DNA from: Leisingera sp. S132
GTDB lineage: Bacteria; Pseudomonadota; Alphaproteobacteria; Rhodobacterales; Rhodobacteraceae
Length of the DNA stretch: 64,000 nt
Reading direction: 5' to 3'
Assembly: GCF_025144465.1 (NCBI RefSeq)
Contig: NZ_CP083553.1
Span: 206,501-270,500 of the forward strand
Shown here in pieces: positions 2,372 to 29,467 of the stretch. The first letter of the stretch is position 1; each line of letters starts with the position of its first letter. A model generated the notes under the pieces. That model ran no database searches, was not told where the DNA came from, and saw only the letters and a list, made by a program, of their open reading frames with translations. The position numbers were made by a program, and so were the translations under genes.

Positions 2372-3394
2372 ATGGGTTACCGCATCGTCGTCGTTGGCGC
2401 CACTGGCAACGTGGGCCGCGAAATGCTGAACATCCTGGCCGAGCGCCAGTTTCCTGTGGATGAGATCGCTGCACTGGCAAGCCGCCGGTCTCTCGGCACT
2501 GAAGTCAGCTTTGGCGATAAGACACTCACTACCAAGGACCTGGACACCTTCGATTTCACCGGCTGGGACATGGCGCTGTTTGCCGTCGGATCCGAGGCGA
2601 CCAAAGTCTATGCCCCCAAGGCTGCGGCCGCGGGCTGTGTGGTGATCGATAACTCCTCGCTCTACCGTTATGACCCGGAGATCCCGCTGATCGTGCCGGA
2701 GTGCAACCCGGAAGCGATCCACGGCTACAAGAACAAGAACATCATCGCCAACCCCAACTGCTCCACCGCGCAGATGGTGGTGGCGCTGAAGCCGCTGCAT
2801 AACCGTGCCAAGATCAAGCGCGTCGTGGTCTCCACCTACCAGTCGGTGTCCGGTGCGGGCAAGGACGGCATGGATGAGCTGTGGGAGCAGACCAAGGCGG
2901 TCTACAACCCCACCACCGATGTGCCGCCGAACAAGTTCCAGAAGCAGATCGCCTTCAACGTGATTCCGCAGATCGACGTCTTCATGGAAGACGGTTCGAC
3001 CAAGGAAGAATGGAAGATGGTCGTGGAAACCAAGAAGATCGTTGACCCGAAGATCAAGGTCACTGCCACCTGCGTCCGCGTGCCGGTTTTCGTCGGCCAT
3101 TCCGAGGCCGTGAACATCGAGTTCGAAGAGTTCCTGGACGAGGACGAGGCCCGTGACATCCTGCGCGAGGCACCGGGCATCATGGTGATCGACAAGCGTG
3201 AGCCGGGCGGCTACGTCTCGCCGGTGGAATGCGCGGGCGATTTTGCCACCTTCATCAGCCGCATCCGCCAGGATTCGACCATCGAGAACGGCCTGAACCT
3301 GTGGTGCGTCAGCGACAACCTGCGCAAGGGCGCGGCGTTGAACGCTGTGCAGATCGCCGAACTGCTGGGCCGTGAGGTCCTGAAAAAGGGCTGA
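2372..3394 (+). CDS. asd: aspartate-semialdehyde dehydrogenase
   Basis: This enzyme reduces aspartyl-4-phosphate to aspartate semialdehyde with NADPH, in the cytoplasm, on the route to lysine, threonine, methionine and diaminopimelate. The 340-residue protein has the N-terminal nucleotide motif GATGNVG (residues 9-15), the catalytic cysteine in NPNCSTAQM (Cys130) and the histidine in GHSEA (about residue 243). Length matches the family. GGAGAAAC precedes the ATG by about 9 bases. The gene is monocistronic and ends in a clear hairpin terminator at 3418. Confidence 0.96.
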   Translation: MGYRIVVVGATGNVGREMLNILAERQFPVDEIAALASRRSLGTEVSFGDKTLTTKDLDTFDFTGWDMALFAVGSEATKVYAPKAAAAGCVVIDNSSLYRYDPEIPLIVPECNPEAIHGYKNKNIIANPNCSTAQMVVALKPLHNRAKIKRVVVSTYQSVSGAGKDGMDELWEQTKAVYNPTTDVPPNKFQKQIAFNVIPQIDVFMEDGSTKEEWKMVVETKKIVDPKIKVTATCVRVPVFVGHSEAVNIEFEEFLDEDEARDILREAPGIMVIDKREPGGYVSPVECAGDFATFISRIRQDSTIENGLNLWCVSDNLRKGAALNAVQIAELLGREVLKKG

Positions 3395-3417
3395 GGTTTT
3401 TCGCTGCTTTGAGCAGG

Positions 3418-3450
3418 GGGCCGCTTCGCAAGGAGCGGCCCTTTTCTTTT
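3418..3450 (+). terminator. intrinsic terminator of asd
   Basis: Perfect 8-bp stem (GGGCCGCT at 3418-3425 with AGCGGCCC at 3434-3441), an 8-base loop, then TTTTCTTTT. It lies 24 bases after the asd stop. Confidence 0.9.
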
Positions 3451-3527
3451 GCGTGGCGTCCGGCCAGGGCCGGGGCTAGGCTTGGCGCCAGGCGGGCAGA
3501 TTTGCGCCGCGGATATTTGTTCGAGAG

Positions 3528-18882: not shown

Positions 18883-19887
18883 TCAGGCGGAGGGGATCGG
18901 CCGGTTGTCCTGGACCCGGAACAGGTTCACCTTGCGGCGTTCCTCCTGCGGGGTGACGCCGAAGCTGTCGCGGTAGTGCTGCGACAGGGTGGAGGACGTG
19001 GCATAACCCACGGCATTGGCGATCGAGGTGATCGAGTCGCGCGAATACATCACCAGCTGGCGGGCGGCGTTCATCCGCAATGTGCGGTAATAGATCGCCG
19101 GGCTTTGGCCGGTGGCGGCCTTGAAGCTGCGTTCCAGCTGGCGCGGTGAGACGCCGATTTCGTTGGCGGCATCGCGGATCGAGACCGGGTGTTCCAGATT
19201 GTCGGCAAACAGTTCAACCGCCTTGGCAACCGGCGGCGGCAGGCTGTCGGCAGTGCTGTCGGTCTTGAAGGCGGGGATTTTCTGACGCACGCCCTCAGCC
19301 CGGACCATCGGGTGCTGGAACCAGCAGGCGACCTCTGTCATCACGGCGTCGCCCATGGCGCGCTCGATCAGTTTCAGCGACAGGTCGAACATCGCCGCGG
19401 CGCCGCTGGCAGTGAACCGGCGGCGGTCCAGCACGATCACGTCGTCGACAGTGGCGAGGGACGGGAATTCAGCGGTGAAGGCTGCCTTGTAGCACCAGTG
19501 CACTGAGCAGCTGTGCCCGTCGAGCAGGCCGGAGCGGGCCAGCGGAAACACCCCGCCGGAAACCGCGCCCATGGTGGTGCCGTGGCGGGCCAGATGGCGC
19601 AGCTTGCCGTTGGAGGCCTTGGGATCCTCGAATTTGCCTTGCGGGCTGGACAGGAGGAACAGCGTATCGACGCCGTCGGCCTCGTCCAGGGCGCAGTCGG
19701 GCTGGAACGCCACATTGGCGGAGGCGTTCACGCTGTCGCCGGTTTCGGACACCAGTTTCCATCGGAAGGTTTCAGAGCCGGCAATTTCATTTGCCGCGCG
19801 CAGGGGTTCGATGGCCGAGGTCAGGCAGGCCATTGGAAAGCCGGGAAAAATCAAAAAGCCGAGTGTCATGGTGTTATCGCGCTGCAT
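18883..19887 (-). CDS. GlxA-family AraC-type regulator with DJ-1/PfpI domain
   Basis: A 334-residue protein with an N-terminal class I glutamine-amidotransferase-like (DJ-1/PfpI) ligand domain (MTLGFLIFPGFPMACLTSAI) and a C-terminal AraC helix-turn-helix pair (SIRDAANEIGVSPRQLERSFKA, then ITSIANAVGYATSSTLSQHY). Members such as GbdR control glycine-betaine and dimethylglycine catabolism in Pseudomonas, so a role in methylated-amine control is plausible but inferred. Translation may start at 19887 or at ATG 19869; neither has a strong ribosome site. It lies upstream of mgdD's terminator, next to tmm. Confidence 0.85.
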   Translation of the reverse strand: MQRDNTMTLGFLIFPGFPMACLTSAIEPLRAANEIAGSETFRWKLVSETGDSVNASANVAFQPDCALDEADGVDTLFLLSSPQGKFEDPKASNGKLRHLARHGTTMGAVSGGVFPLARSGLLDGHSCSVHWCYKAAFTAEFPSLATVDDVIVLDRRRFTASGAAAMFDLSLKLIERAMGDAVMTEVACWFQHPMVRAEGVRQKIPAFKTDSTADSLPPPVAKAVELFADNLEHPVSIRDAANEIGVSPRQLERSFKAATGQSPAIYYRTLRMNAARQLVMYSRDSITSIANAVGYATSSTLSQHYRDSFGVTPQEERRKVNLFRVQDNRPIPSA

Positions 19888-19980: not shown

Positions 19981-21327
19981 CTAGTTTTGCAGATATGCGT
20001 CCAGCGAGTCGTCCAGGGCGTCCTTCCACGGGGTGTGGTGGACGGGGGCCATGGTGCCGGTGATCACTGATTTATAGGAGTTGTTGCGGAAGGCCATGAT
20101 ATCCTGGGCCTTGTGCCCCTTCCATTCATAGAAGGCCTGGCAGGCGCCAGCCACGTCGAAGGTCGGGTAGTCAGTCTCCTCGATCAGTTCCAGCACGTAG
20201 TCGCCCTGGTACTTGATCGCGTATTTGACGTCGGGCGAGGCTTCCTCGCGCGCTTCGCGCTCCTTCACGTCGGCCAGCAGCGCTGCCTTGTCCGAGGGGA
20301 TTTCGATCTTGCCCATGATCGCGTCGCGGACCCACCAGGCCTGGGCGTCGAACATGTTGAAGGTGAACCACTGGTCCTGCATGCCCAGGTAGAACATCTT
20401 GGGGTTATGGGCATATACGACGCCCTTGTAGAGGTCGGCGGTGGCGAGGCGGTTGGCGGTCTTCAGGCGCAGATCGTCCGGCAGGAAGTTAAAGAAGTGT
20501 TTGTAGCCGGTGCAAAGGATGATCGCGTCGACCTCTTTTTGGGTGCCGTTAACGAAGGTGGCGGTGTTGCCCTCGACGCTTTCCAGGGCCGGAACCTCGT
20601 CCCAGTTGTCCGGCCATTTAAAGCCCATCGGCTCATTCCGGTAGGAGGTCGTGATCGACTTGGCGCCGTATTTCCAGCACTGGGAGCCGATGTCTTCGGC
20701 GGAGTAGGAGGCGCCGAGGATCAGGATGTCCTTGCCGGCAAATTCGCGGGCATCGCGGAAGTCATGGGCGTGCAGAACGCGGCCGTTGAAGGTGTCGAAG
20801 CCGGGGTAAAACGGCACATTCGGGGTCGAGAAATGGCCCGAGGCGCAGATCACGTGGTCGAATTCTTCCTTGTAGGTGCTGTCCTTGGTGTGGTCATGCA
20901 CGGTGACGGTGAAGTTGCCCTTGTCCTCGTTGTATTCGACCCAGCGGATCGGGGAGCTGAAACGGACCCACTTGCGCACATCCGCCTTCTTCACCCGGCC
21001 TTCGATGTAATCGAACAGCACGGCGCGCGGCGGGTAGGAGGCGATCTGCTTGCCGAAATGCTCCTCAAACGAATAGTCGGCAAATTCCAGACCCTCCTTG
21101 GGGCCGTTGGACCACAGGTAGCGGTACATCGAGCAGTGCACCGGCTCGCCGTTCTCGTCCAGGCCGGTGCGCCAGGTGTAGTTCCACAGGCCGCCCCAGT
21201 CGTCCTGCTTCTCAAAGCAGACGATTTCCGGGATCTCCTCGCCCTTGTTGGCTGCGGATTGGAAGGCGCGCAGCTGGGCCAGGCCCGAGGGGCCGGCGCC
21301 GATAATGGCAATACGTTTCTTGGTCAT
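19981..21327 (-). CDS. tmm: trimethylamine monooxygenase
   Basis: A flavin monooxygenase that uses NADPH and O2 to make TMAO from trimethylamine in the cytoplasm. 448 residues from ATG 21327. FAD motif GAGPSG (residues 9-14), the FMO fingerprint F-x-G-x3-H-x3-F in [11 protein letters not shown], and the NADPH motif [10 protein letters not shown] are all present. Length and sequence match marine Tmm proteins (about 446-448). A longer reading upstream to 21465 would cross the promoter and operators. Two palindromic sites lie just upstream (21340-21385). It is divergent from the binding-protein gene at 21490. Confidence 0.93.
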
Positions 21328-21339
21328 CTGGTTCTCCCG

Positions 21340-21385
21340 TTGGTTCGGACCAATATTGTAATTTGGATCATTTGGTCTGGTCCAA
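21340..21385 (-). promoter_or_regulatory. two-site palindromic operator upstream of tmm
   Basis: Site 1 at 21340-21353 is TTGGTTCGGACCAA and site 2 at 21372-21385 is TTGGTCTGGTCCAA. Both are close to the perfect palindrome TTGGTCCGGACCAA, with centres 32 bases apart. The same pair stands before dmmD (28934-28980). The N-terminal GntR/FCD class often binds TGGT-Nx-ACCA sequences, and such a regulator is encoded at 22798. The sites lie 13-58 bases from the tmm ATG, so they overlap or flank the promoter. Confidence 0.8.
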
Positions 21386-21489
21386 TTAGGTCCAAACTTG
21401 CACCAATAAGTCAACATTTTTTCACATGCGGAATGTTTTGGGGTGCAATTGGACTGGAAACACATTGTTTTATTGGTAGGATTTCACAC

Positions 21490-22791
21490 ATGACGATGAC
21501 CAGTTTTGTGCACCAGCTGACCGCCCGCGCGGCGCTGCCGCGACTGTCCGTGGGGATGGCAGAATCAGTGAACATTGGATTCCTCGGCCCGCTTTCGGGG
21601 CCGGTGGAGAGCTGGGGGCTGCCCGGACTGAACGGCTGCCGGATCTGGGAGGATGGTCTGAACAAGGCTGGCGGAGTGCTGATCGGCGGCCGCCGTTATC
21701 CGATCCGGATCCACTCCTACGATTGCGGCTACGATCCCGAACGCGCGCTGGAAGGCGCGGTTGAACTGGTCCAGAACCACAACGTCAGGCTGATGCTGAT
21801 GCTGGGCGGCGATACCTTTGCGCCGGTGCGCGACTTCCTGATGCGCAACAAGGTGCTGACCTCCACGCTGCTGCCCAGCGATCTGTCACCCGACACGCCC
21901 TATCTGATTGCGCCAAGCGAGGCGCATCCGATCCAGAATGTGACCGGTGTGGCCTGGCTGGCGGAGAACCGGCCGGAGCTGAAGACGGTTGCGCTGTGCA
22001 GCCAGGCCGATCTGCTGGGGCTGCCGGCGCAGGCGGTCTACCGGGCGGCGTTCAAGGCCGAGGGCAAGCAGATCCTGCGGGAAGTGCAGTATGACCCGGG
22101 TGCCAGTGATCCGGCGCCGGTGGTGGATCCGATGCTGGAGAGCGGCGCCGATATCCTGTGCTGGTGCTCATCCTACGCGCCGATGGTGCATGCGATGACG
22201 GAATATGCCCATGCCAAGGGGTTCAAGGGGCAGATCATCAGCTGCACCATGGATGGCTATGACCGTTTGGTGGCGCGGACGTCGCCGGACTTCATGGAAG
22301 GTGTGGTGTTCCAGTTCCCGGATTTCGACGATCCGATGCTGCGGGAGAAGGCGTTTTTCTTCAACCGCCCGCATGAGTTCTACGAGGAGTACAACCGGCG
22401 TTTTCCCGGCAGCTGGTCAGCGGTGAGCTGGGAGTATGTGGCGATCCTGGATATCTGGCACAGCGCGGTGGAGAAGGCGGGATCGGTCGCGCCGCCGTCG
22501 GTGCTGGCAGCGATGAAGCAGCTGGGTCATGTCACCCATGCCTTTGGCCACGCGGAATGGTGGGGTGAGGAAATATTCGGTATTTCCAACGCCTTGGTTG
22601 GCGATTGGCCAGTGGTGACAATCCAGGACGGCAAGGCGCGTATTGCGGAGTTCAAGTCGATCCCCGCCTGGCTGGCGCAGCATTCCGCCTTGTTGAAAGC
22701 AGAGATGGAGGGGCTGGGGCAGCTGTGGCACCAGCGTCTGGAGAGTGATGCGCCGGGCAGCGAGGTCAGCTCGCGCGCGGTGGAGGTCTGA
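21490..22791 (+). CDS. AmiC/UrtA-like solute-binding-fold protein without visible signal peptide
   Basis: A 433-residue protein of the type I periplasmic-binding fold used by amide/urea ABC importers (Peripla_BP_5 type). It starts the fold with VNIGFLGPLSGPVESWG. The first 24 residues have no hydrophobic core and no lipobox, and no ABC permease or ATPase gene is nearby. That makes a cytoplasmic ligand sensor like AmiC a real alternative to an importer subunit. TAGGA is about 8 bases before ATG 21490; a second ATG is at 21496. It is divergent from tmm and convergent with the GntR gene, only 6 bases away. Confidence 0.72.
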   Translation: MTMTSFVHQLTARAALPRLSVGMAESVNIGFLGPLSGPVESWGLPGLNGCRIWEDGLNKAGGVLIGGRRYPIRIHSYDCGYDPERALEGAVELVQNHNVRLMLMLGGDTFAPVRDFLMRNKVLTSTLLPSDLSPDTPYLIAPSEAHPIQNVTGVAWLAENRPELKTVALCSQADLLGLPAQAVYRAAFKAEGKQILREVQYDPGASDPAPVVDPMLESGADILCWCSSYAPMVHAMTEYAHAKGFKGQIISCTMDGYDRLVARTSPDFMEGVVFQFPDFDDPMLREKAFFFNRPHEFYEEYNRRFPGSWSAVSWEYVAILDIWHSAVEKAGSVAPPSVLAAMKQLGHVTHAFGHAEWWGEEIFGISNALVGDWPVVTIQDGKARIAEFKSIPAWLAQHSALLKAEMEGLGQLWHQRLESDAPGSEVSSRAVEV

Positions 22792-22797
22792 GGCGGC

Positions 22798-23526
22798 TCA
22801 GACCTCCTGCAGCAGCAGCTTCTGCTCGTCGATCAGGTGCAGCTTGATGAACTCCACCGCCGATTCCACATCGCGTGAGGCGATGGCATTGAACAGCGTG
22901 TTATAGCGCTTCTGGTAGTCCTGGATCCGCTGCGGCGTCAGGTGGCGGCGGCGCAGCGCGGTGCGGTAAGACAGGCGGCAGGCCTCTATCGTCAGCTCAT
23001 AGCAGGAGTGCAGCAGAGGATTGCCGGTGCCCTCGGCGATCTTGCGGTAGAGGTCCTCCTCCGCATCAATGAAGTCGCCGGGATCGGTGCGCACGGCCTC
23101 CACCCGCGACAGGATCTGGTCCAGTTCCTCGATCTGGCGCGGGGTCATGTTGATCACGGCCAGCCGCACCATCTCCGGTTCCAGAATGCCGCGCACCACC
23201 AGGTGGTCGAGCGGCGAGACTTCGTTCGCCAGCGAGCTGTAGGAGGCCGCTTCGGGCTTGGGGTCGGAACGGAATTTCACAAAACTGCCGGAACCGGCGC
23301 GGCGGTGTATGACATTCTGGGCGGCCAGGACATCCAGGGCCTCCCGCACGGTGTTGCGGGCCACCCCCAGTTCGGATGCCAGCGTGCGTTCGGAGGGCAG
23401 CCGTGTATCCACCGGGTAAGTCCCGGATTTGATCCGGGCAAAGAGCGTGTCGATCACCACCTGCACGGTGGCGCCGACGGAGTGGGTGGTCAGGATCTGC
23501 GAGGTGGTGTCTTCCGCTGAGCTCAT
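22798..23526 (-). CDS. GntR-family (FCD/FadR subfamily) regulator
   Basis: A 242-residue regulator: N-terminal winged helix (RLPSERTLASELGVARNTVR, residues about 45-64) and a C-terminal FCD ligand domain (VRGILEPEMVRLAV, ending FIKLHLIDEQK). FCD regulators usually bind small organic acids or amines and recognise short palindromes. It is the best local candidate to bind the TTGGTCCGGACCAA sites before tmm and dmmD. The start at 23526 is chosen because the fold begins there; an extension to 23676 is low-complexity. No close copy of the operator is directly before it. Confidence 0.88.
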   Translation of the reverse strand: MSSAEDTTSQILTTHSVGATVQVVIDTLFARIKSGTYPVDTRLPSERTLASELGVARNTVREALDVLAAQNVIHRRAGSGSFVKFRSDPKPEAASYSSLANEVSPLDHLVVRGILEPEMVRLAVINMTPRQIEELDQILSRVEAVRTDPGDFIDAEEDLYRKIAEGTGNPLLHSCYELTIEACRLSYRTALRRRHLTPQRIQDYQKRYNTLFNAIASRDVESAVEFIKLHLIDEQKLLLQEV

Positions 23527-24099
23527 GATGTGTCGTGTTCCGGGCTGTATGAGCGGGAAACCCTGCTCCTGAGTGCTGTGCACACGCTGCACATGCCGGA
23601 GCGGGTGGCGGTGCTGCAGGTGTTTTTCACGGCGGTGATTGGGGCTCAGATTAGCGGTTCCGGTGCCGCTCAGCAAGGACGCTCAGGCGAATTGGTCCAG
23701 TTCGGCGGTGTTTTCTAGGGGGTGTCAAAACTGCCCTAGACCGCTGTTTTTATGCTGTTTTGGGTTCTTGCGGCGGCGCATTGCGACGGCAAACCGCAGA
23801 ATTGGTGCCTTTTTGGTTCCTGGGCGGCAGGTGTTGCACGGCGCGTGGCCTGCCTGGCGGGAGCAGTGTGTGTCCGCCAGCCTGAGTGGCGCAGCAAGGC
23901 GGCGCGGGCAATGCTGTGCCGCACGCCAGCGCGCGGGGAAGCGCGGAGGCAACAATTTTCTTTCCTGTGGCGGTTGGGGGTTGGGGAAAATGAGTAATGG
24001 CAGTAAAATAATATTCGCAGCATTCCTTGCGCCCGGGAAAGTTTTTACATATCGGCTGCTGCGCGCTTGTCAGACGCCATCCATAAGGAAGATAACACA
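23527..24099. other. 573-base intergenic region with no gene seen
   Basis: Divergent promoters of the GntR and XRE-cupin genes must lie here. Visible items are an inverted repeat CTAGGG/CCCTAG (23715-23720 and 23734-23739) and a lone half-site-like AATTGGTCCAG near 23690. No open frame with coding character or RNA gene was recognised. Confidence 0.5.
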
Positions 24100-24756
24100 G
24101 TGGCTAAACTCAAAGACGATAGTGACGCAGTGGCTCATAACCTTTCCCAAGACCCGCACCGGGTCCGCGATGGTGCAGAAAAAGTTCTGGAAGTGGCGAT
24201 TGGCCGCGAGGTGCGGTCGTTCCGGCGGCAGCAGGGGATCACGGTTGCGGATCTGGCCAATCTGACCGGGCTGTCGATCGGCATGCTGTCGAAGATCGAG
24301 AATGGCAACACCTCGCCGTCGCTGACCACTTTGCAGCTGCTCGCCAATGCGCTGAGCGTGCCGATCACGTCGTTCTTCCGCCGCTTCGAGGAGAGCCGCG
24401 AGGCGGTGCACACCAAATCCGGTGAAGGTGCGGAGACCGAGCGCGCGGGCACGCGGGCCGGGCATCAGTACCAGCTGCTGGGGCATCTGGGCGCCAATGC
24501 TTCCGGTGTGATGGTGGAGCCTTACATGATCACCCTGACCGAAGAGTCGGATGTGTTCCCGACTTTCCAGCATGACGGGGTGGAGATGCTCTATATGCTG
24601 GAGGGCGAGGTGGACTACCGTCACGGCGACAAGGTGTTTCCGCTGAAGCCGGGGGATACGCTGTTTTTCGACGCGGATGCGCCGCACGGGCCGGAGGAGC
24701 TGGTCAAACTGCCGGCGCGCTATCTGTCGGTTATTTCCTACCCGCAATCAAGCTGA
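24100..24756 (+). CDS. XRE-family regulator with C-terminal cupin domain
   Basis: 218 residues: a lambda-repressor-type HTH (VADLANLTGLSIGMLSKIEN, after RSFRRQQGIT) and a C-terminal cupin with VEMLYMLEGEVDYRHGD and PGDTLFFDADAPHGPEEL. This class controls amine, polyamine or amino-acid catabolism in many bacteria. GTG at 24100 is chosen because AAGGAA lies 9 bases upstream; a TTG at 24067 would add 11 residues. It is encoded directly before the dmm region but faces it, with its 3' end towards dmmC. Confidence 0.83.
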   Translation: MAKLKDDSDAVAHNLSQDPHRVRDGAEKVLEVAIGREVRSFRRQQGITVADLANLTGLSIGMLSKIENGNTSPSLTTLQLLANALSVPITSFFRRFEESREAVHTKSGEGAETERAGTRAGHQYQLLGHLGANASGVMVEPYMITLTEESDVFPTFQHDGVEMLYMLEGEVDYRHGDKVFPLKPGDTLFFDADAPHGPEELVKLPARYLSVISYPQSS

Positions 24757-24810
24757 CGCGCGGCGGCGGTGCTCCCGCCGGTACCGCGGCATCATAAGAT
24801 GCCCCTCTCC

Positions 24811-24908
24811 GTTGGGCCAGGCGCCGCGCGATGCGCGGCGCGGCTGCGTCCTGCAGCTGCCTTGCCGCCTGCCGCCCGCAGCGCGCAAGGCGCGCTGCCC
24901 GGCCCAAC
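24811..24908. repeat. GC-rich palindromic REP-like element
   Basis: Inner arms GCGCCGCGC (24821-24829) and GCGCGGCGC (24833-24841) flank GAT. Outer arms GTTGGGCC (24811-24818) and GGCCCAAC (24901-24908) also pair. It resembles the element at 5267-5305 and is likewise between converging genes, so it may act as a terminator or belong to a REP family. Confidence 0.6.
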
Positions 24909-25068
24909 GCTGCGCCGGGTGCAGGCGCAGCCTGCGGCCGGATGCGCGGGCGGGAGGGCTTGGTGCCCGTTTTCAGGCAAAAAGAAACTGCCGGAGCCAG
25001 GGGCTGCGGCAGTCAGTGACACGGGCCTGGGTGACAGGGGTAGGGACGGCCCGCACGTCCGCTCGGGA

Positions 25069-26115
25069 TCAGTCGTCGTCGGGCCAGATGCCGTCGGAGG
25101 TCGGCGTGCCGTCGTCAAACTGGGAGAGCCATTCCACCATCAGCGGGCGGTTGTCGATGAAGCCCTTGTAGGTCGCCAGTTCCTCCGGCAGGTCGCGGAT
25201 CACCCGGTGCAGGCGGCGCGCCCATTTCGGCACCTTTACCAGATCGTTGAAACTGATCAGGTAGCACCGGATCGGGAACACCAGCGCGTTGGAGCGCGGC
25301 AGGCGGAAGAAGGTCTGCAGCTCGACCCGCAGGTGCTGCTTCTCGCCGATGTTCTCCATCGTCAGCCCCTGCTTCATCACGCCCCATTTGTGGTAGTTCT
25401 CAGGGCTGGTGTCGAGCAGCGGGTTGACCGTCATGGTCCAGTTCAGCCGCCGGGCGGGCTGGCCCTGCTGGATGTTCAGGAGGAACTTCAGGGCACGGAC
25501 GAAAATGCCCATCTCATGCGCTTTCGGGACCGGTGCGTGCCATTCGAAGAAGTTCATGCCGATATCGAAATCCAGCGACCAGTCGGCCTGGGTGGTGACC
25601 ATGCCGGCATCCATCCACAGGTTGTCGTCGCGCTGGTCGAGCACCGCAAAGTCGCCCTGAGTCTGGCGGGTGATATATTCCATCGGCCCATAGGGCAATG
25701 TGCTTTCATCGAGGAAGGTGAAAGTGTCGTCGATGCCCAGCGGTTTGTTGATCCAGCGCCAGCGGTTGCCGTCCTTGTGCAGTTCGAACAGGTCCGGGTA
25801 TTCGGCTGCCTTGGCCTCCATGATCAGTTCGACCAGATCCCAGCCCGCCAGCGTCATATGCGGCAGTGACTGGCAGCGCAGCGGGTCGTTTGCCAGCACC
25901 CGGGCGCGGTCCTTCATTTCCGAGACATAGTGCTCGTCCACGTCGAAGGTGCGTTCAAACACCGAGCCGGGCCGGTAGGATTTATGCGGCTCCATGTTCA
26001 CCGAATACATGTAGCTGTCTTCGTGGAACGGGAAGGGGAAGCGTTTGATTGCCCAGTCCGAGTTCTTGAAGGTGAAGTCGCCGTAGAAGGTTTCGTCGTT
26101 GAATTGAATGGTCAT
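25069..26115 (-). CDS. dmmC: dimethylamine monooxygenase subunit C (DUF3445, haem-dependent oxidative N-demethylase family)
   Basis: A 348-residue DUF3445 protein (MTIQFNDETFYGDFTFKNSD). This family is annotated as haem-dependent oxidative N-demethylase and supplies the catalytic part of dimethylamine monooxygenase, which converts dimethylamine to methylamine plus formaldehyde. It is the last gene of a four-gene block whose order (GcvT-like, small zinc-ribbon, reductase, DUF3445) equals dmmDABC of marine roseobacters. It starts 11 bases after the dmmB stop. The letter assignment follows that gene order. Confidence 0.87.
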   Translation of the reverse strand: MTIQFNDETFYGDFTFKNSDWAIKRFPFPFHEDSYMYSVNMEPHKSYRPGSVFERTFDVDEHYVSEMKDRARVLANDPLRCQSLPHMTLAGWDLVELIMEAKAAEYPDLFELHKDGNRWRWINKPLGIDDTFTFLDESTLPYGPMEYITRQTQGDFAVLDQRDDNLWMDAGMVTTQADWSLDFDIGMNFFEWHAPVPKAHEMGIFVRALKFLLNIQQGQPARRLNWTMTVNPLLDTSPENYHKWGVMKQGLTMENIGEKQHLRVELQTFFRLPRSNALVFPIRCYLISFNDLVKVPKWARRLHRVIRDLPEELATYKGFIDNRPLMVEWLSQFDDGTPTSDGIWPDDD

Positions 26116-26126
26116 CTTTCTCTCCC

Positions 26127-27092
26127 TCAGCGGTCCAGAACCAGTGTCTTGCCTTCAAAGCGCGACACGCAGGGCATGATGTGTTTGCCGCCGGCCTTTT
26201 GCTCGTCGGTCAGCCAGTGGTCGTAGTGCAGGAACTTGCCGTCATAGCCGATGACATTGGTCTCGCACTGGCCGCAGGCGCCGCCGCGGCAGAGGTATGG
26301 GGCGTCGATGCCCGCCGCTTCCAGGGCTTCCAGCAGCGATTGATGCTCGCCGACCTGAACGATCTTGTTGGAGACCGCGCATTTCACCTCGAAAGGCTTG
26401 CCGGAGGCAGGCGCCAGGAATTCCTCGGAATGCACGGCTTCGCGCGGCCAGCCCATTTCCCCGGCAGTGCTGTGCACCCAATTGATCATGCCCTTGGGGC
26501 CGCAGACATAGACGTGCGTGCCCAGCGGCTGGTTGGCGAGCAGGGTCTTGAGGTCGATCGCCTCTTTCTGGTCGTCGTGATAGATGTGCACCTTGCCCGG
26601 GTAACGCTCCGACAGCTCCTTGGCGTAGGTGCCGAGCGAAGCAGTGCGGACCGAATAGTGCAGCTCGAAGTTGCCGTCCATCATCGACAGCTGATGCATC
26701 TGCGCCATGAAGGGAGTGATGCCGATGCCGCCGGCGAGCATCAGGTGCTTTTTGGCGCGCAAATCCAGCGAGAACAGGTTCACCGGATTGGAGATGACCA
26801 TCTCCATGCCTTCTTTCACCTGGGAATGCATGAACCTGGAACCGCCCCGGCCCTGATCGTCTCGCCGCACCGAGATAGTGTAGGCGCCGCGGTCGGCCGG
26901 GTTGGACATCAGCGAATAGGCGTTCAGGCGGGTGATACCGCCGTCCTGCATCTCGACCACGGTATGCGCCCCGCCCGAGAAGGTGGGCAGGTCGCCGCCG
27001 CCGGTGCGGACGAATTTGAAACGGGTGACCAGGTCGTTGATCGGTTTGACCTCGGCCACGGTGACATTCAGTTTTGCGGTGCCAGCACTCAT
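26127..27092 (-). CDS. dmmB: dimethylamine monooxygenase reductase subunit B (PDR/VanB family)
   Basis: A 321-residue phthalate-dioxygenase-reductase type protein. It has a flavin domain (RLNAYSLMSNP), an NAD(P)H domain (LAGGIGITPFMAQ, then YVCGPKGMI) and a C-terminal plant-type [2Fe-2S] ferredoxin with CRGGACGQC and a final Cys in HIMPCVSRF. It feeds electrons from NAD(P)H to the oxygenase. Its start overlaps the dmmA stop by 4 bases (27089-27092). Confidence 0.9.
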   Translation of the reverse strand: MSAGTAKLNVTVAEVKPINDLVTRFKFVRTGGGDLPTFSGGAHTVVEMQDGGITRLNAYSLMSNPADRGAYTISVRRDDQGRGGSRFMHSQVKEGMEMVISNPVNLFSLDLRAKKHLMLAGGIGITPFMAQMHQLSMMDGNFELHYSVRTASLGTYAKELSERYPGKVHIYHDDQKEAIDLKTLLANQPLGTHVYVCGPKGMINWVHSTAGEMGWPREAVHSEEFLAPASGKPFEVKCAVSNKIVQVGEHQSLLEALEAAGIDAPYLCRGGACGQCETNVIGYDGKFLHYDHWLTDEQKAGGKHIMPCVSRFEGKTLVLDR

Positions 27093-27700
27093 TTGAACAG
27101 CTCCACTTTCTCGGGGATGTTGCCCGGATCCTCAGCGTCGACCCGCACCCCCTGGAAGGCGGCGAGGCGGCGCGAGTAGTGATCGCGCACGAACAGGCTG
27201 AGGCCGCAGTGGCTGCACTCAAACGGATCGGTGGTGACGTCCTCGGTGATGCCCTTGCAGTGCACGCATTGCATGCGGCGCGCGGTGGAGCCGCGGTGTT
27301 CGGTCTGGATTGCGGTATGCGGAATGCCGGCGGCTGTGGCCTCGGCCATGGCTTGCCCCATCAGGCTTTCGGTGCCCGAGAGATACACCTGCGTGCCCAT
27401 GTGGCAATCCTGCAGGGCGCGGCGGATGCGGCTCTGCGCGGCTTCATAGGACGGCCCGGCGTAATACTGGCCCGCACCCAGTTCCTCCAGCTGGCTGCTG
27501 AATTTCGTGCCGGTCTTCTTGGGGATGTAGATGATATGGGCCTTGGCCCAAAATGCCGCGTCGGTGGATTTGGCCAGATCGAGGATTGCTTCGGCGCCTT
27601 CGGCGTCGGCAATCATCAGATGGCCACTGCCGGAGCGGGCCTCAAGCTCGCCGTAAACCGGGCGGCTGGTGATGGAAGGGGGGAATTCGGTCTTAGACAT
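27089..27700 (-). CDS. dmmA: dimethylamine monooxygenase subunit A (DmmA family, zinc ribbon)
   Basis: 203 residues from ATG 27700. Residues about 145-170 hold CVHC and CSHC, two C-x2-C pairs about 17 residues apart, a likely zinc ribbon or iron site. The N-terminal part is mixed alpha/beta (HIIYIPKKTGTKFSSQL). This matches the DmmA family and position two of dmmDABC. Its precise role in the complex is not clear from sequence. It lies 71 bases after dmmD and is coupled by overlap to dmmB. Confidence 0.83.
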   Translation of the reverse strand: MSKTEFPPSITSRPVYGELEARSGSGHLMIADAEGAEAILDLAKSTDAAFWAKAHIIYIPKKTGTKFSSQLEELGAGQYYAGPSYEAAQSRIRRALQDCHMGTQVYLSGTESLMGQAMAEATAAGIPHTAIQTEHRGSTARRMQCVHCKGITEDVTTDPFECSHCGLSLFVRDHYSRRLAAFQGVRVDAEDPGNIPEKVELFK

Positions 27701-27771
27701 GTGGGTCGCTTTTCCTGCAGTCCGGGTGAACGAAAGCGGGCGCCCCCGAACGGGAGCGCCCGGGATCCGGA

Positions 27772-28917
27772 TCAGCCCTTTGCGGTGCGGATCGATTTGT
27801 CCTTGTCGTAGAAGGGCATCTCTTCGGCGGTGGCGGCGATCTCGGTGCCGTCGCCGTTGCGGACGGTCAGCTTGGTGCCTGGCTTGGCGCAGGCGACCGG
27901 CATCCGGGCAATGCCCACGTTGTGGTTGTTCACCTCGGAGTACATGCCGTAGGTGACCACGCCGACCTTCTCGCCGTTCTGCAAGAGGTCCGCGCCTTCG
28001 TCCGCGGGGGTCTTGCCCTCCAGCATGACGCCATAGATCTTGAAGCGCTCCTTGCCTTCGGCGGCATAGTGGTTCTCGGCGCCGATGAAGCCGGTCTTGC
28101 CGGGGGAGACGGTGAACTCGAGGCCCAGTTCCCACAGGGTGTCGCCGCAGGGCTCATCGTCGAACGGGTAGGTCTCGGAGTTGTCGCCCGGGTAGAACAG
28201 CAGGTAGCTTTCGGTGCGCAGCAGGTCGAGGGTGGAGAACTGCACGGGAACAATGCCCAGGCCCTTGCCCTTGTCCAGAATGCTGTCCCAGAGGTGCACC
28301 GCGTCCTTGGCCTGGCAGAAGATCTCATAGCCGCGCTCACCGGTATATCCGGTGCGCGAGATCATCACCGGGCAGCCGAAAAGCTTGGTCTGGATGATAC
28401 CGAAATAGGCCAGGTCGCGGATGCCGGGCACATACTCGGCCAGAAAGTCCACGGCGACGGGGCCTTGCAGCGACATGTCGTGCAGGTTGTCGTCGAACAC
28501 AACCGAGCAATTCTTGCCGGCGGCGACGGTGCTGAGCTGCTCCATGCCGGTGCCGGTGCCGTGGACCACCATCCAGCTGTTCACCGACAGGCGGTAGATG
28601 ATGCAGTCGTCCACGAATTTGCCCTGTTCATTCAGGATCGAGGCATAGGTGGAGCGGCCCGGCATGATCTTTTCGACGTTGCGGGTGGTGACCCGGTCGA
28701 TGACCTGGGCGGCGTGCTCGCCCACGACGTGGACTTTCTTGAGGCCGGACACGTCCATGAGGCCTGCCTTGGTGCGGACCGCCTCATAGTCGGCCTTGGC
28801 GCGCTCGGGGGTGTGGTCATAGAACCAGGCGGTTCCCATGCCGTTCCAATCTTCCAGCTCGCCGCCGATTTCCTTGTGGCGCTGGGCCAGTGCTGAAGTC
28901 CGCCAGATGATGGCCAT
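27772..28917 (-). CDS. dmmD: GcvT-family aminomethyltransferase-like protein (DmmD)
   Basis: 381 residues from ATG 28917. It has the GcvT fold throughout: [44 protein letters not shown] and a C-terminal barrel. GcvT proteins bind tetrahydrofolate, so this one may trap the formaldehyde released by DmmABC as methylene-THF; that role is inference. It is first in the dmm operon and is preceded by two palindromic operator sites matching those before tmm. The start is chosen at MAIIWRTSA because an extension to 28947 would run into operator site 1. Confidence 0.85.
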
Positions 28918-28933
28918 TGTTTGCGTCTCCCTA

Positions 28934-28980
28934 TTGGTGCGGACCAAAACTCTTGATTTGGTTCCTTTGGTCCGGTCCAG
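28934..28980 (-). promoter_or_regulatory. two-site palindromic operator upstream of dmmDABC
   Basis: Site 1 at 28934-28947 is TTGGTGCGGACCAA and site 2 at 28967-28980 is TTGGTCCGGTCCAG. Centres are 33 bases apart and site 1 is 16 bases before the ATG. The tmm pair has the same order and nearly the same spacing. Both second sites share the same deviation, T for A at position 10. The sequence between sites (GATTTGG...CTTTGG) is also conserved with tmm. Confidence 0.8.
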
Positions 28981-29467
28981 TTAGCCAAGGGAGGGGGCTT
29001 CATGTCAACGATTATTCCTATCAGGAAAAAGTTTTCTCTTAAAAGGCGGTTTTTGAACGTGTTTGCGGCATGAATTGGCCTGAAAGGGTCTTTTTGGTCT
29101 TCGGCTTGGGGTTGCGGCAGGCCTGTGATGGTCCGCTGAGAGTGAGAATCGCTGTGCCTGCGCGCCGGAGATTCGCGTGATTCCGTCGCAAATTAGCAAT
29201 GTGCCCTTGTGCCGGGCGGCTCTTCCTTCCGAGGCCTCCTGGGTGAAACTGTTGCGCCGCGGCAAGTGTTTAGCCGTTGAAAGTCCAAGGCTTAGAGGTC
29301 GCATCGGGCGCGGAAAGTGCCGTTTCCGGGCTGCTGTAATTTCCCTAAAGGTAACAATTTTTCACATGATTATTGACAGCTCGCCCTCCGGAGACCCAAT
29401 AATATAGGAAAATAATTTTCCCAAGAGGCAAAAATGTCCGGGATGCTGCCAACAGGAGGGCAAAACA
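28981..29467 (+). promoter_or_regulatory. leader/promoter region of the Amt gene
   Basis: A 487-base gap, coding-free as far as I can see. TTGACA at 29373-29378 and an AT-rich stretch at 29396-29405 could be a promoter, though the spacing to the best -10 like sequence is long. AGGAGGG at 29454-29460 is a near-ideal ribosome site 7 bases before the TTG start. I looked for a sigma-54 consensus and did not find a convincing one. Confidence 0.4.

Follow-up and report, generated by a model that had tools for sequence, protein, structure and literature searches.

Paired TTGGT-N4-ACCAA operators before tmm and dmmDABC in Leisingera sp. S132, and a probable lineage-specific extension of the TmoR regulon

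The window considered here is a stretch of 64,000 nucleotides from Leisingera sp. S132 (assembly GCF_025144465.1, contig NZ_CP083553.1, positions 206,501 to 270,500), in which a cluster for the breakdown of trimethylamine (TMA) is found. It includes tmm, encoding the monooxygenase of the first step, and dmmDABC, encoding the dimethylamine (DMA) monooxygenase of the third step, with the gene of a GntR-type regulator lying between them (Table 1). Two 14-bp sites precede tmm and two precede dmmD. All four occur where an earlier sequence-only reading had placed them, with centres 32 bp apart at tmm and 33 bp apart at dmmD, and the T at position 10 reported in that reading is common to both second sites. 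The proximal sites are separated from the ATG by 12 bp in tmm and by 16 bp in dmmD.

Table 1. Genes and promoter elements of the methylamine cluster (window positions)
Feature	Position	Strand	Remarks
tmm, trimethylamine monooxygenase (start 21327)	19981..21327	-	NF058570, 832 bits against a cut-off of 675
Peripla_BP_6 gene, divergent from tmm, its promoter facing the operators	21490..22791	+	Pfam
tmoR, repressor with GntR helix-turn-helix and FCD domains, proposed binder of all four sites	22798..23526	-	Pfam GntR 1.2e-17, FCD 3.2e-23
dmmC, HODM alpha-like subunit	25069..26115	-	Pfam HODM_asu-like
dmmB, reductase subunit	26127..27092	-	Pfam Fer2, NAD_binding_1
dmmA	27089..27700	-	Pfam DmmA-like
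dmmD (GcvT-like), first gene of dmmDABC (start 28917)	27772..28917	-	Pfam GCV_T
tmm operator site 1 (proximal) TTGGTCCGAACCAA	21340..21353	-	perfect TTGGT-N4-ACCAA
Extra half-site between the tmm sites GATCCAAA	21362..21369	-	TCCA in the window, mostly ACCA in relatives
tmm operator site 2 (distal) TTGGACCAGACCAA	21372..21385	-	
Proposed -10 of tmm, CCTAAT, touching site 2	21385..21390	-	18 nt from -35
Proposed -35 of tmm, TTGACT	21409..21414	-	fixed TTGAC distance in relatives
dmmD operator site 1 (proximal) TTGGTCCGCACCAA	28934..28947	-	perfect TTGGT-N4-ACCAA
Extra half-site between the dmmD sites GAACCAAA	28957..28964	-	
dmmD operator site 2 (distal) CTGGACCGGACCAA	28967..28980	-	8/10 match retained in congeners
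Proposed -10 of dmmD, CTAACT, touching site 2	28979..28984	-	18 nt from -35
Proposed -35 of dmmD, TTGACA	29003..29008	-	constant spacing to TAACTGG in relatives

The two promoters resemble each other well beyond the sites themselves. They align across 59 columns with a score of 50, compared with at most 23 in 2000 single-base shuffles, which confirms the stated resemblance of the intervening DNA; the similarity is located mostly at likely contact bases. In three dmmD promoters of the sister genus, the best match is not the tmm promoter of the same genome. The dmmD promoter may derive either from a duplicated tmm promoter or from convergence. The exact pattern derived in the sequence-only reading has 5 matches in the 4.69 Mb genome, four of them being these sites and the fifth (contig C5) lying inside an open reading frame (ORF). 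With up to 2 mismatches, 21 matches were counted on both strands of the window, against 7.0 expected and a maximum of 14 in 100 shuffles. The exact palindrome TTGGT-N4-ACCAA is present at 4 places genome-wide, two of which are the proximal sites of tmm and dmmD. A wider regulon in this genome was considered and rejected on the exact matches, the 2 remaining exact palindromes and the fifth exact pattern match all being inside ORFs; a further 63 places match the pattern with one mismatch, mostly distant from the genes examined.

The regulator of both operators is very probably the GntR protein encoded at 22798, as had been proposed in the sequence-only reading. The order tmm, one gene, GntR gene is the arrangement given for tmoR in Ruegeria pomeroyi (PMC13390433), and from this synteny the protein is very probably TmoR. 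A neighbourhood legend in PMC4744692 also names tmoR and a periplasmic-binding protein. In R. pomeroyi DSS-3, TmoR (SPO1553) is encoded beside tmm, usually with one gene between, represses tmm, and binds its promoter Ptmm in microscale thermophoresis and electrophoretic mobility shift assays; tmm was up 4.4-fold in a tmoR deletion under TMA, and DMA was identified as the main effector and trimethylamine N-oxide (TMAO) as a minor one (PMC13390433). The main text of that study contains no operator sequence, and none of the terms motif, palindrom-, operator or binding site appears in it. A literature search, whose coverage did not extend to the earlier TmoR paper of 2016, found no published description of a TmoR operator, and among the matches listed there was no publication to the point on Leisingera and methylamines.

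The link between palindrome and regulator was examined in a family sample of 248 genomes, one per genus, 16 of which contain a TmoR orthologue (57-100% identity; next match 41%). The tmm gene was detected in 56 of them (E 1e-120 or better), and 54 promoters were used, with G246 (start unaligned) and G102 (contig edge) omitted. A palindrome matching at least 8/10 positions within 130 bp of tmm was present in 14/15 genomes with TmoR and in 2/39 without it (Fisher p=5e-10); G078 is the lone TmoR genome lacking a good one. It is quite improbable that the palindromes are instead bound by another regulator of the cluster, either the XRE-cupin protein (24100-24756) or the AraC protein (18883-19887). 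Both genes do lie within the cluster, and TmaR, an AraC protein, binds the tmm and dmm promoters in R. pomeroyi (PMC13390433), the AraC protein of the window being only a candidate TmaR. The tmm palindrome, however, tracks neither gene, being present within 130 bp in 14/44 genomes with and 2/10 without the XRE-cupin gene (p=0.70), and in 8/24 with and 8/30 without the AraC gene (p=0.77). Co-occurrence thus gives no support to these two candidates. A second AraC-type protein, 56% identical to that of the window, is encoded elsewhere in the genome (G000:C1:3498581-3499513).

Among the best 80 of 100 tmoR loci, 69 carry tmm and a homologue of the binding-protein gene is present in 73. In the DNA-binding domain of TmoR, residues 54-65 are identical in the 13 aligned proteins, save position 62 in one. 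Three histidines bind the metal in metal-dependent FCD proteins (PMC7674646), and TmoR does not have this full set; in the alignment to 2di3, two of the positions are occupied by Tyr160 and Tyr208. Tyr208 is found in 79/80 TmoR orthologues, while position 160 is Tyr in 68/80 and His in 10/80, and position 230 is His in 70/80. Tyrosines at the metal-histidine positions would fit an amine ligand. A structure predicted from a 13-row alignment (mean predicted local distance difference test 81, predicted template modelling score 0.56) retrieved GntR-type proteins in a fold search, with query TM-scores of 0.40 to 0.51 among the matches listed, a confirmation of family only.

The architecture of the tmm operator can be followed across relatives. 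Of the tmoR loci compared, again the best 80 of 100, 68 have a usable tmm start; together with 15 promoters of the family sample they form a set of 83, reduced to 53 after those about 80% or more alike were dropped. Two sites, each matching at least 7/10, are found 31-33 bp apart in 33/53 promoters, compared with a mean of 0.5 and a maximum of 3 in 200 dinucleotide-shuffled sets. At a threshold of at least 8/10 the count is 22/53, with a shuffled maximum of 1. This spacing is well above chance and fits dimers lying on a single helix face, as had been suggested for the window. A gap of 4 nt between the half-sites is best, with matches of at least 9/10 in 37/53 promoters; gaps of 1-3 and 5-8 nt were ruled out, each reaching at most 3/53 (gap 2 in 1/53, gap 3 in 3/53). 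Further elements were scored in the 37 promoters whose proximal site matches at least 8/10. An ACCA half-site, the third conserved element, lies between the two sites and precedes site 1 by 14-15 bp in 35/37, and TTGAC begins 59-61 bp before site 1 in all 37. The -35 box is placed at TTGAC because this distance is constant across relatives. With 18 nt from there to the -10 box, site 2 abuts the -10 box and is expected to span the transcription start, and site 1 would be located about 26-39 bases into the transcript. These positions suggest repression by a block to initiation and to early elongation.

The half-sites are those of FadR-subfamily (GntR/FCD) operators, which are built on TGGT/ACCA and follow a TKGT/ACMA rule with which TTGGT/ACCAA agrees (PMC4494728). 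Double sites at constant distance in some groups of this subfamily, and extra half-site boxes 7-12 nt from the palindrome centre, are also described (PMC4494728); in the tmm promoters, the conserved ACCA starts at a distance of about 11 nt from the site 2 centre. The gap differs, since FadR-type sites have 3 nt (2 nt in several groups) and HutC-type sites 4 nt (PMC4494728), and the GT-AC gap of the TmoR sites is 4 nt. NanR of Escherichia coli is likewise a GntR-type repressor, three dimers of which bind a (GGTATA)3 operator cooperatively, but its operator consists of direct repeats, whereas palindromes plus one half-site are present here (PMC8012715). Atu1419, a VanR-type FCD repressor, recognises two palindromes, one overlapping the -10 box; it is a tetramer acting by looping between sites 109-190 bp apart (PMC7797058), unlike the 32-33 bp found here, and the published DNA-binding domain of TmoR is a dimer (PMC13390433).

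An entirely different function for the inverted repeats, as RNA hairpins with a 5-bp stem and a 4-base loop that control translation near the ribosome-binding site, is barely plausible. Site 1 lies 12-16 bases before the ATG, and a loop of 4 bases would be suitable for a hairpin; in the relatives L108, L112 and L114 both sides have C-G as the outer pair, as a stem allows, which a palindromic protein site would allow too. Elsewhere, by eye and without a count, the letters stay TTGGT/ACCAA with no compensating pair changes. In addition, site 2 is located at the promoter and the presence of the palindrome depends on tmoR. What is new for tmm is the operator itself, with its 4-nt gap, its pairs at 31-33 bp and a -35 box at constant distance; repression of tmm by TmoR was already known, and the use of this operator at dmm in particular lineages is new.

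The dmm promoter was compared in 21 genomes of Leisingera, 20 of which have dmmD (the window included), and in 3 genomes of the sister genus. The distal site 2 of dmmD, at 8/10, is present in 20/20 and 3/3 of these, respectively, and TTGAC starts 25 nt before TAACTGG in all 23. Five congeners (L276-L280) have a dmmD only 66-67% identical to that of the window and yet the same operator promoter, and in two genomes with a divergent dmmD (loci L064 and L065) dmmABC are 92-98% identical. These identities point to an exchange of the dmmD gene in L276-L280 with retention of the promoter. In the family sample, 33/34 dmmD promoters were readable (G030 is at a contig edge), and a palindrome within 130 bp was found in 2/16 genomes with TmoR and 0/17 without it (p=0.23); within 300 bp the counts are 4/16 and 0/17. 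Another element, YTGHAY-N4-9-TTGHTTY, occurs in 18/33 dmmD promoters of the family sample (18/31 without the two genera), in 0/54 tmm promoters and in 0/23 dmmD promoters of Leisingera and its sister genus; the pattern was defined after inspection of these same dmmD sequences. This element may represent the promoter that TmaR activates. In Leisingera and the sister genus, dmm thus carries a tmm-type promoter where many relatives have an unrelated one, and for this reason dmm would have joined the TmoR regulon there.

Other lineages connect dmm to the operator by different arrangements. In all five Celeribacter/Pseudodonghicola loci, tmoR is followed by amt-dmmDABC, with a perfect palindrome 88-99 bp before the aligned amt start and no tmm match within these loci. 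The same amt arrangement is present in G246 and G138 of the family sample with a 10/10 palindrome, and in G039 with a weaker one (8/10); G138 and locus L134 are probably one and the same genome. The genes tmm, tdm, amt and dmmD are consecutive on one strand in G134, G078, G046 and locus L132. In Ensifer (L119), dmmDABC directly follows tmm, and in Sinorhizobium shofinae (L097) it stands between a tmm-type operator and tmm. A remnant of the tmm 5' end (about 3180-3500) is present there between operator and dmmD, which points to an insertion of dmmDABC downstream of the tmm promoter. In G222 (L206, about 1255-1268), a lone perfect palindrome is found 232 bp before dmmD, intergenic behind the preceding ORF and upstream of a stretch resembling an activator-type promoter; this is perhaps a further route linking dmm to TmoR. 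The 16 genera with TmoR accordingly divide into 2 with the operator pair, 3 with the amt arrangement, 3 with the order tmm-tdm-amt-dmm, 1 with a distant single site and 7 in which none of these links was seen.

A quick TmoR tree of the best 80 of 100 loci, with long branches, recovers the amt group as a single clade (SH-aLRT 99) that is remote from the group with the operator pair; the operon group falls in two positions. In its labels, the pair includes promoters with a degraded site 1; 21 rows are labelled separate and 38 are unlabelled, and two of the rows labelled separate, L080 and L112, were read only afterwards and agreed. The clade of the pair group includes two rows without a pair (L072, L074), which implies its loss or a second gain in that clade, as far as this tree can be followed. 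TmoR appears to be wired to the third step in some lineages only, by more than one kind of arrangement.

The sites, their conservation, the co-occurrence of palindrome and TmoR, and the difference between the dmm promoters are established by these comparisons. It is likely that the four sites are TmoR operators and that TmoR represses both tmm and dmmDABC. A number of results weigh against this assignment. With the search extended to 300 bp, the contrast at tmm weakens to 14/15 genomes with and 4/39 without TmoR. The published binding of Ptmm by the DNA-binding domain of TmoR is weak (Kd 5.1 uM; PMC13390433). A sigma-70 consensus scan gave no match at dmmD and a single one at tmm, at a different place (0.4 expected), because the proposed -10 boxes are poor. 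Site 1 of dmmD, the better palindrome of the pair in the window as the sequence-only reading had it, is perfect in 15/20 congeners and degraded in the other 5 and in 3/3 genomes of the sister genus, so that site 2 is the constant member there. In seven of the 16 genera with TmoR (G002, G010, G053, G086, G089, G153, G174), dmmD has no site of at least 9/10 within 300 bp, and no other connection to TmoR was seen. Finally, tdm and the downstream genes, including dmm, were unchanged in the R. pomeroyi tmoR deletion under TMA (PMC13390433), a condition in which the repressor is already released in part.

The last of these results and the degraded proximal sites would favour control of tmm only, as in R. 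pomeroyi, where tmm is the sole pathway target of TmoR according to the June 2026 study of one strain and the DNA-binding domain of TmaR binds Pdmm (PMC13390433). The dmmD sites would then be weakly bound or relics, with TmaR alone driving dmm. This is unlikely for the lineages considered here: site 2 and its spacing to the -35 box are retained in 23/23 genomes of both genera, the element of 18/31 other genera is missing from all of their dmmD promoters, and other lineages tie dmm to the TmoR operator by different routes. A shared regulator for the first and third steps, as claimed in the sequence-only reading, is consistent with the single operator type at tmm and dmmD in the window; as a general rule it is not supported. 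Its further suggestion that the regulon splits at methylamine captures a part of the picture only, since TmaR activates tdm, dmm, gmaS-mgs and mgd together in R. pomeroyi (PMC13390433).

For repression of both operons, the following mechanism may be proposed, in which we infer binding at dmmD, cooperativity and a roadblock. A TmoR dimer would recognise TTGGT-N4-ACCAA. Site 2 of each promoter would touch the -10 box and cover the likely transcription start, and site 1 would follow three turns of the helix further downstream, immediately ahead of the ribosome-binding site, with a further half-site in between. In the absence of inducer, RNA polymerase could be blocked at tmm and dmmDABC by two dimers bound to the same face of the helix; DMA, and also TMAO, would release them, so that the first enzyme and the DMA-consuming enzyme are derepressed together. 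In Leisingera and its sister genus, dmm would have entered a regulon which in other lineages may consist of tmm only. Overall, these promoters appear to represent an ordinary kind of operator for a known tmm repressor, atypical in its 4-nt gap, together with a predicted, well supported lineage-specific extension to dmmDABC.

A broader and more tentative proposal, held somewhat short of even confidence, is that TmoR is at root a DMA-sensing repressor for which the DMA monooxygenase is the natural second target; the aromatic residues at metal-histidine positions would point to an FCD pocket for a methylammonium ion and not for a carboxylate. Lineages would then have recruited dmm repeatedly: by a tmm-type promoter replacing the activator-type one (Leisingera and sister genus), by an operator before a tmoR-linked amt-dmm (Celeribacter type), or by placement of dmmDABC behind the tmm operator (Ensifer/Sinorhizobium, and separately the Sinirhodobacter type). 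R. pomeroyi, with a dmm unresponsive to the loss of tmoR, would represent one state among several. DMA breakdown is described as a bottleneck in the marine degradation of methylamines, and DMA is a source for aerosol formation (PMC5520151). With a defined operator, the tmm-only conclusion drawn from one strain (PMC13390433) becomes testable in any genome, and strains are predicted to exist whose DMA-consuming step is controlled by a DMA sensor. The dmm promoter of Leisingera also offers a clear example from nature of a pathway step whose genes are preceded by the promoter type of another step.

Two further features were observed near these promoters. The Peripla_BP_6 protein encoded opposite tmm, whose homologues occur in the 73/80 tmoR loci mentioned above and not in the five Celeribacter/Pseudodonghicola ones, may be a cytosolic sensor, because no signal peptide was seen by eye at its N-terminus. 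The sequence TTTTTCACATG occurs twice in the window, at 21418-21428 before the binding-protein gene and at 29358-29368 before amt, and is possibly the site of another regulator.

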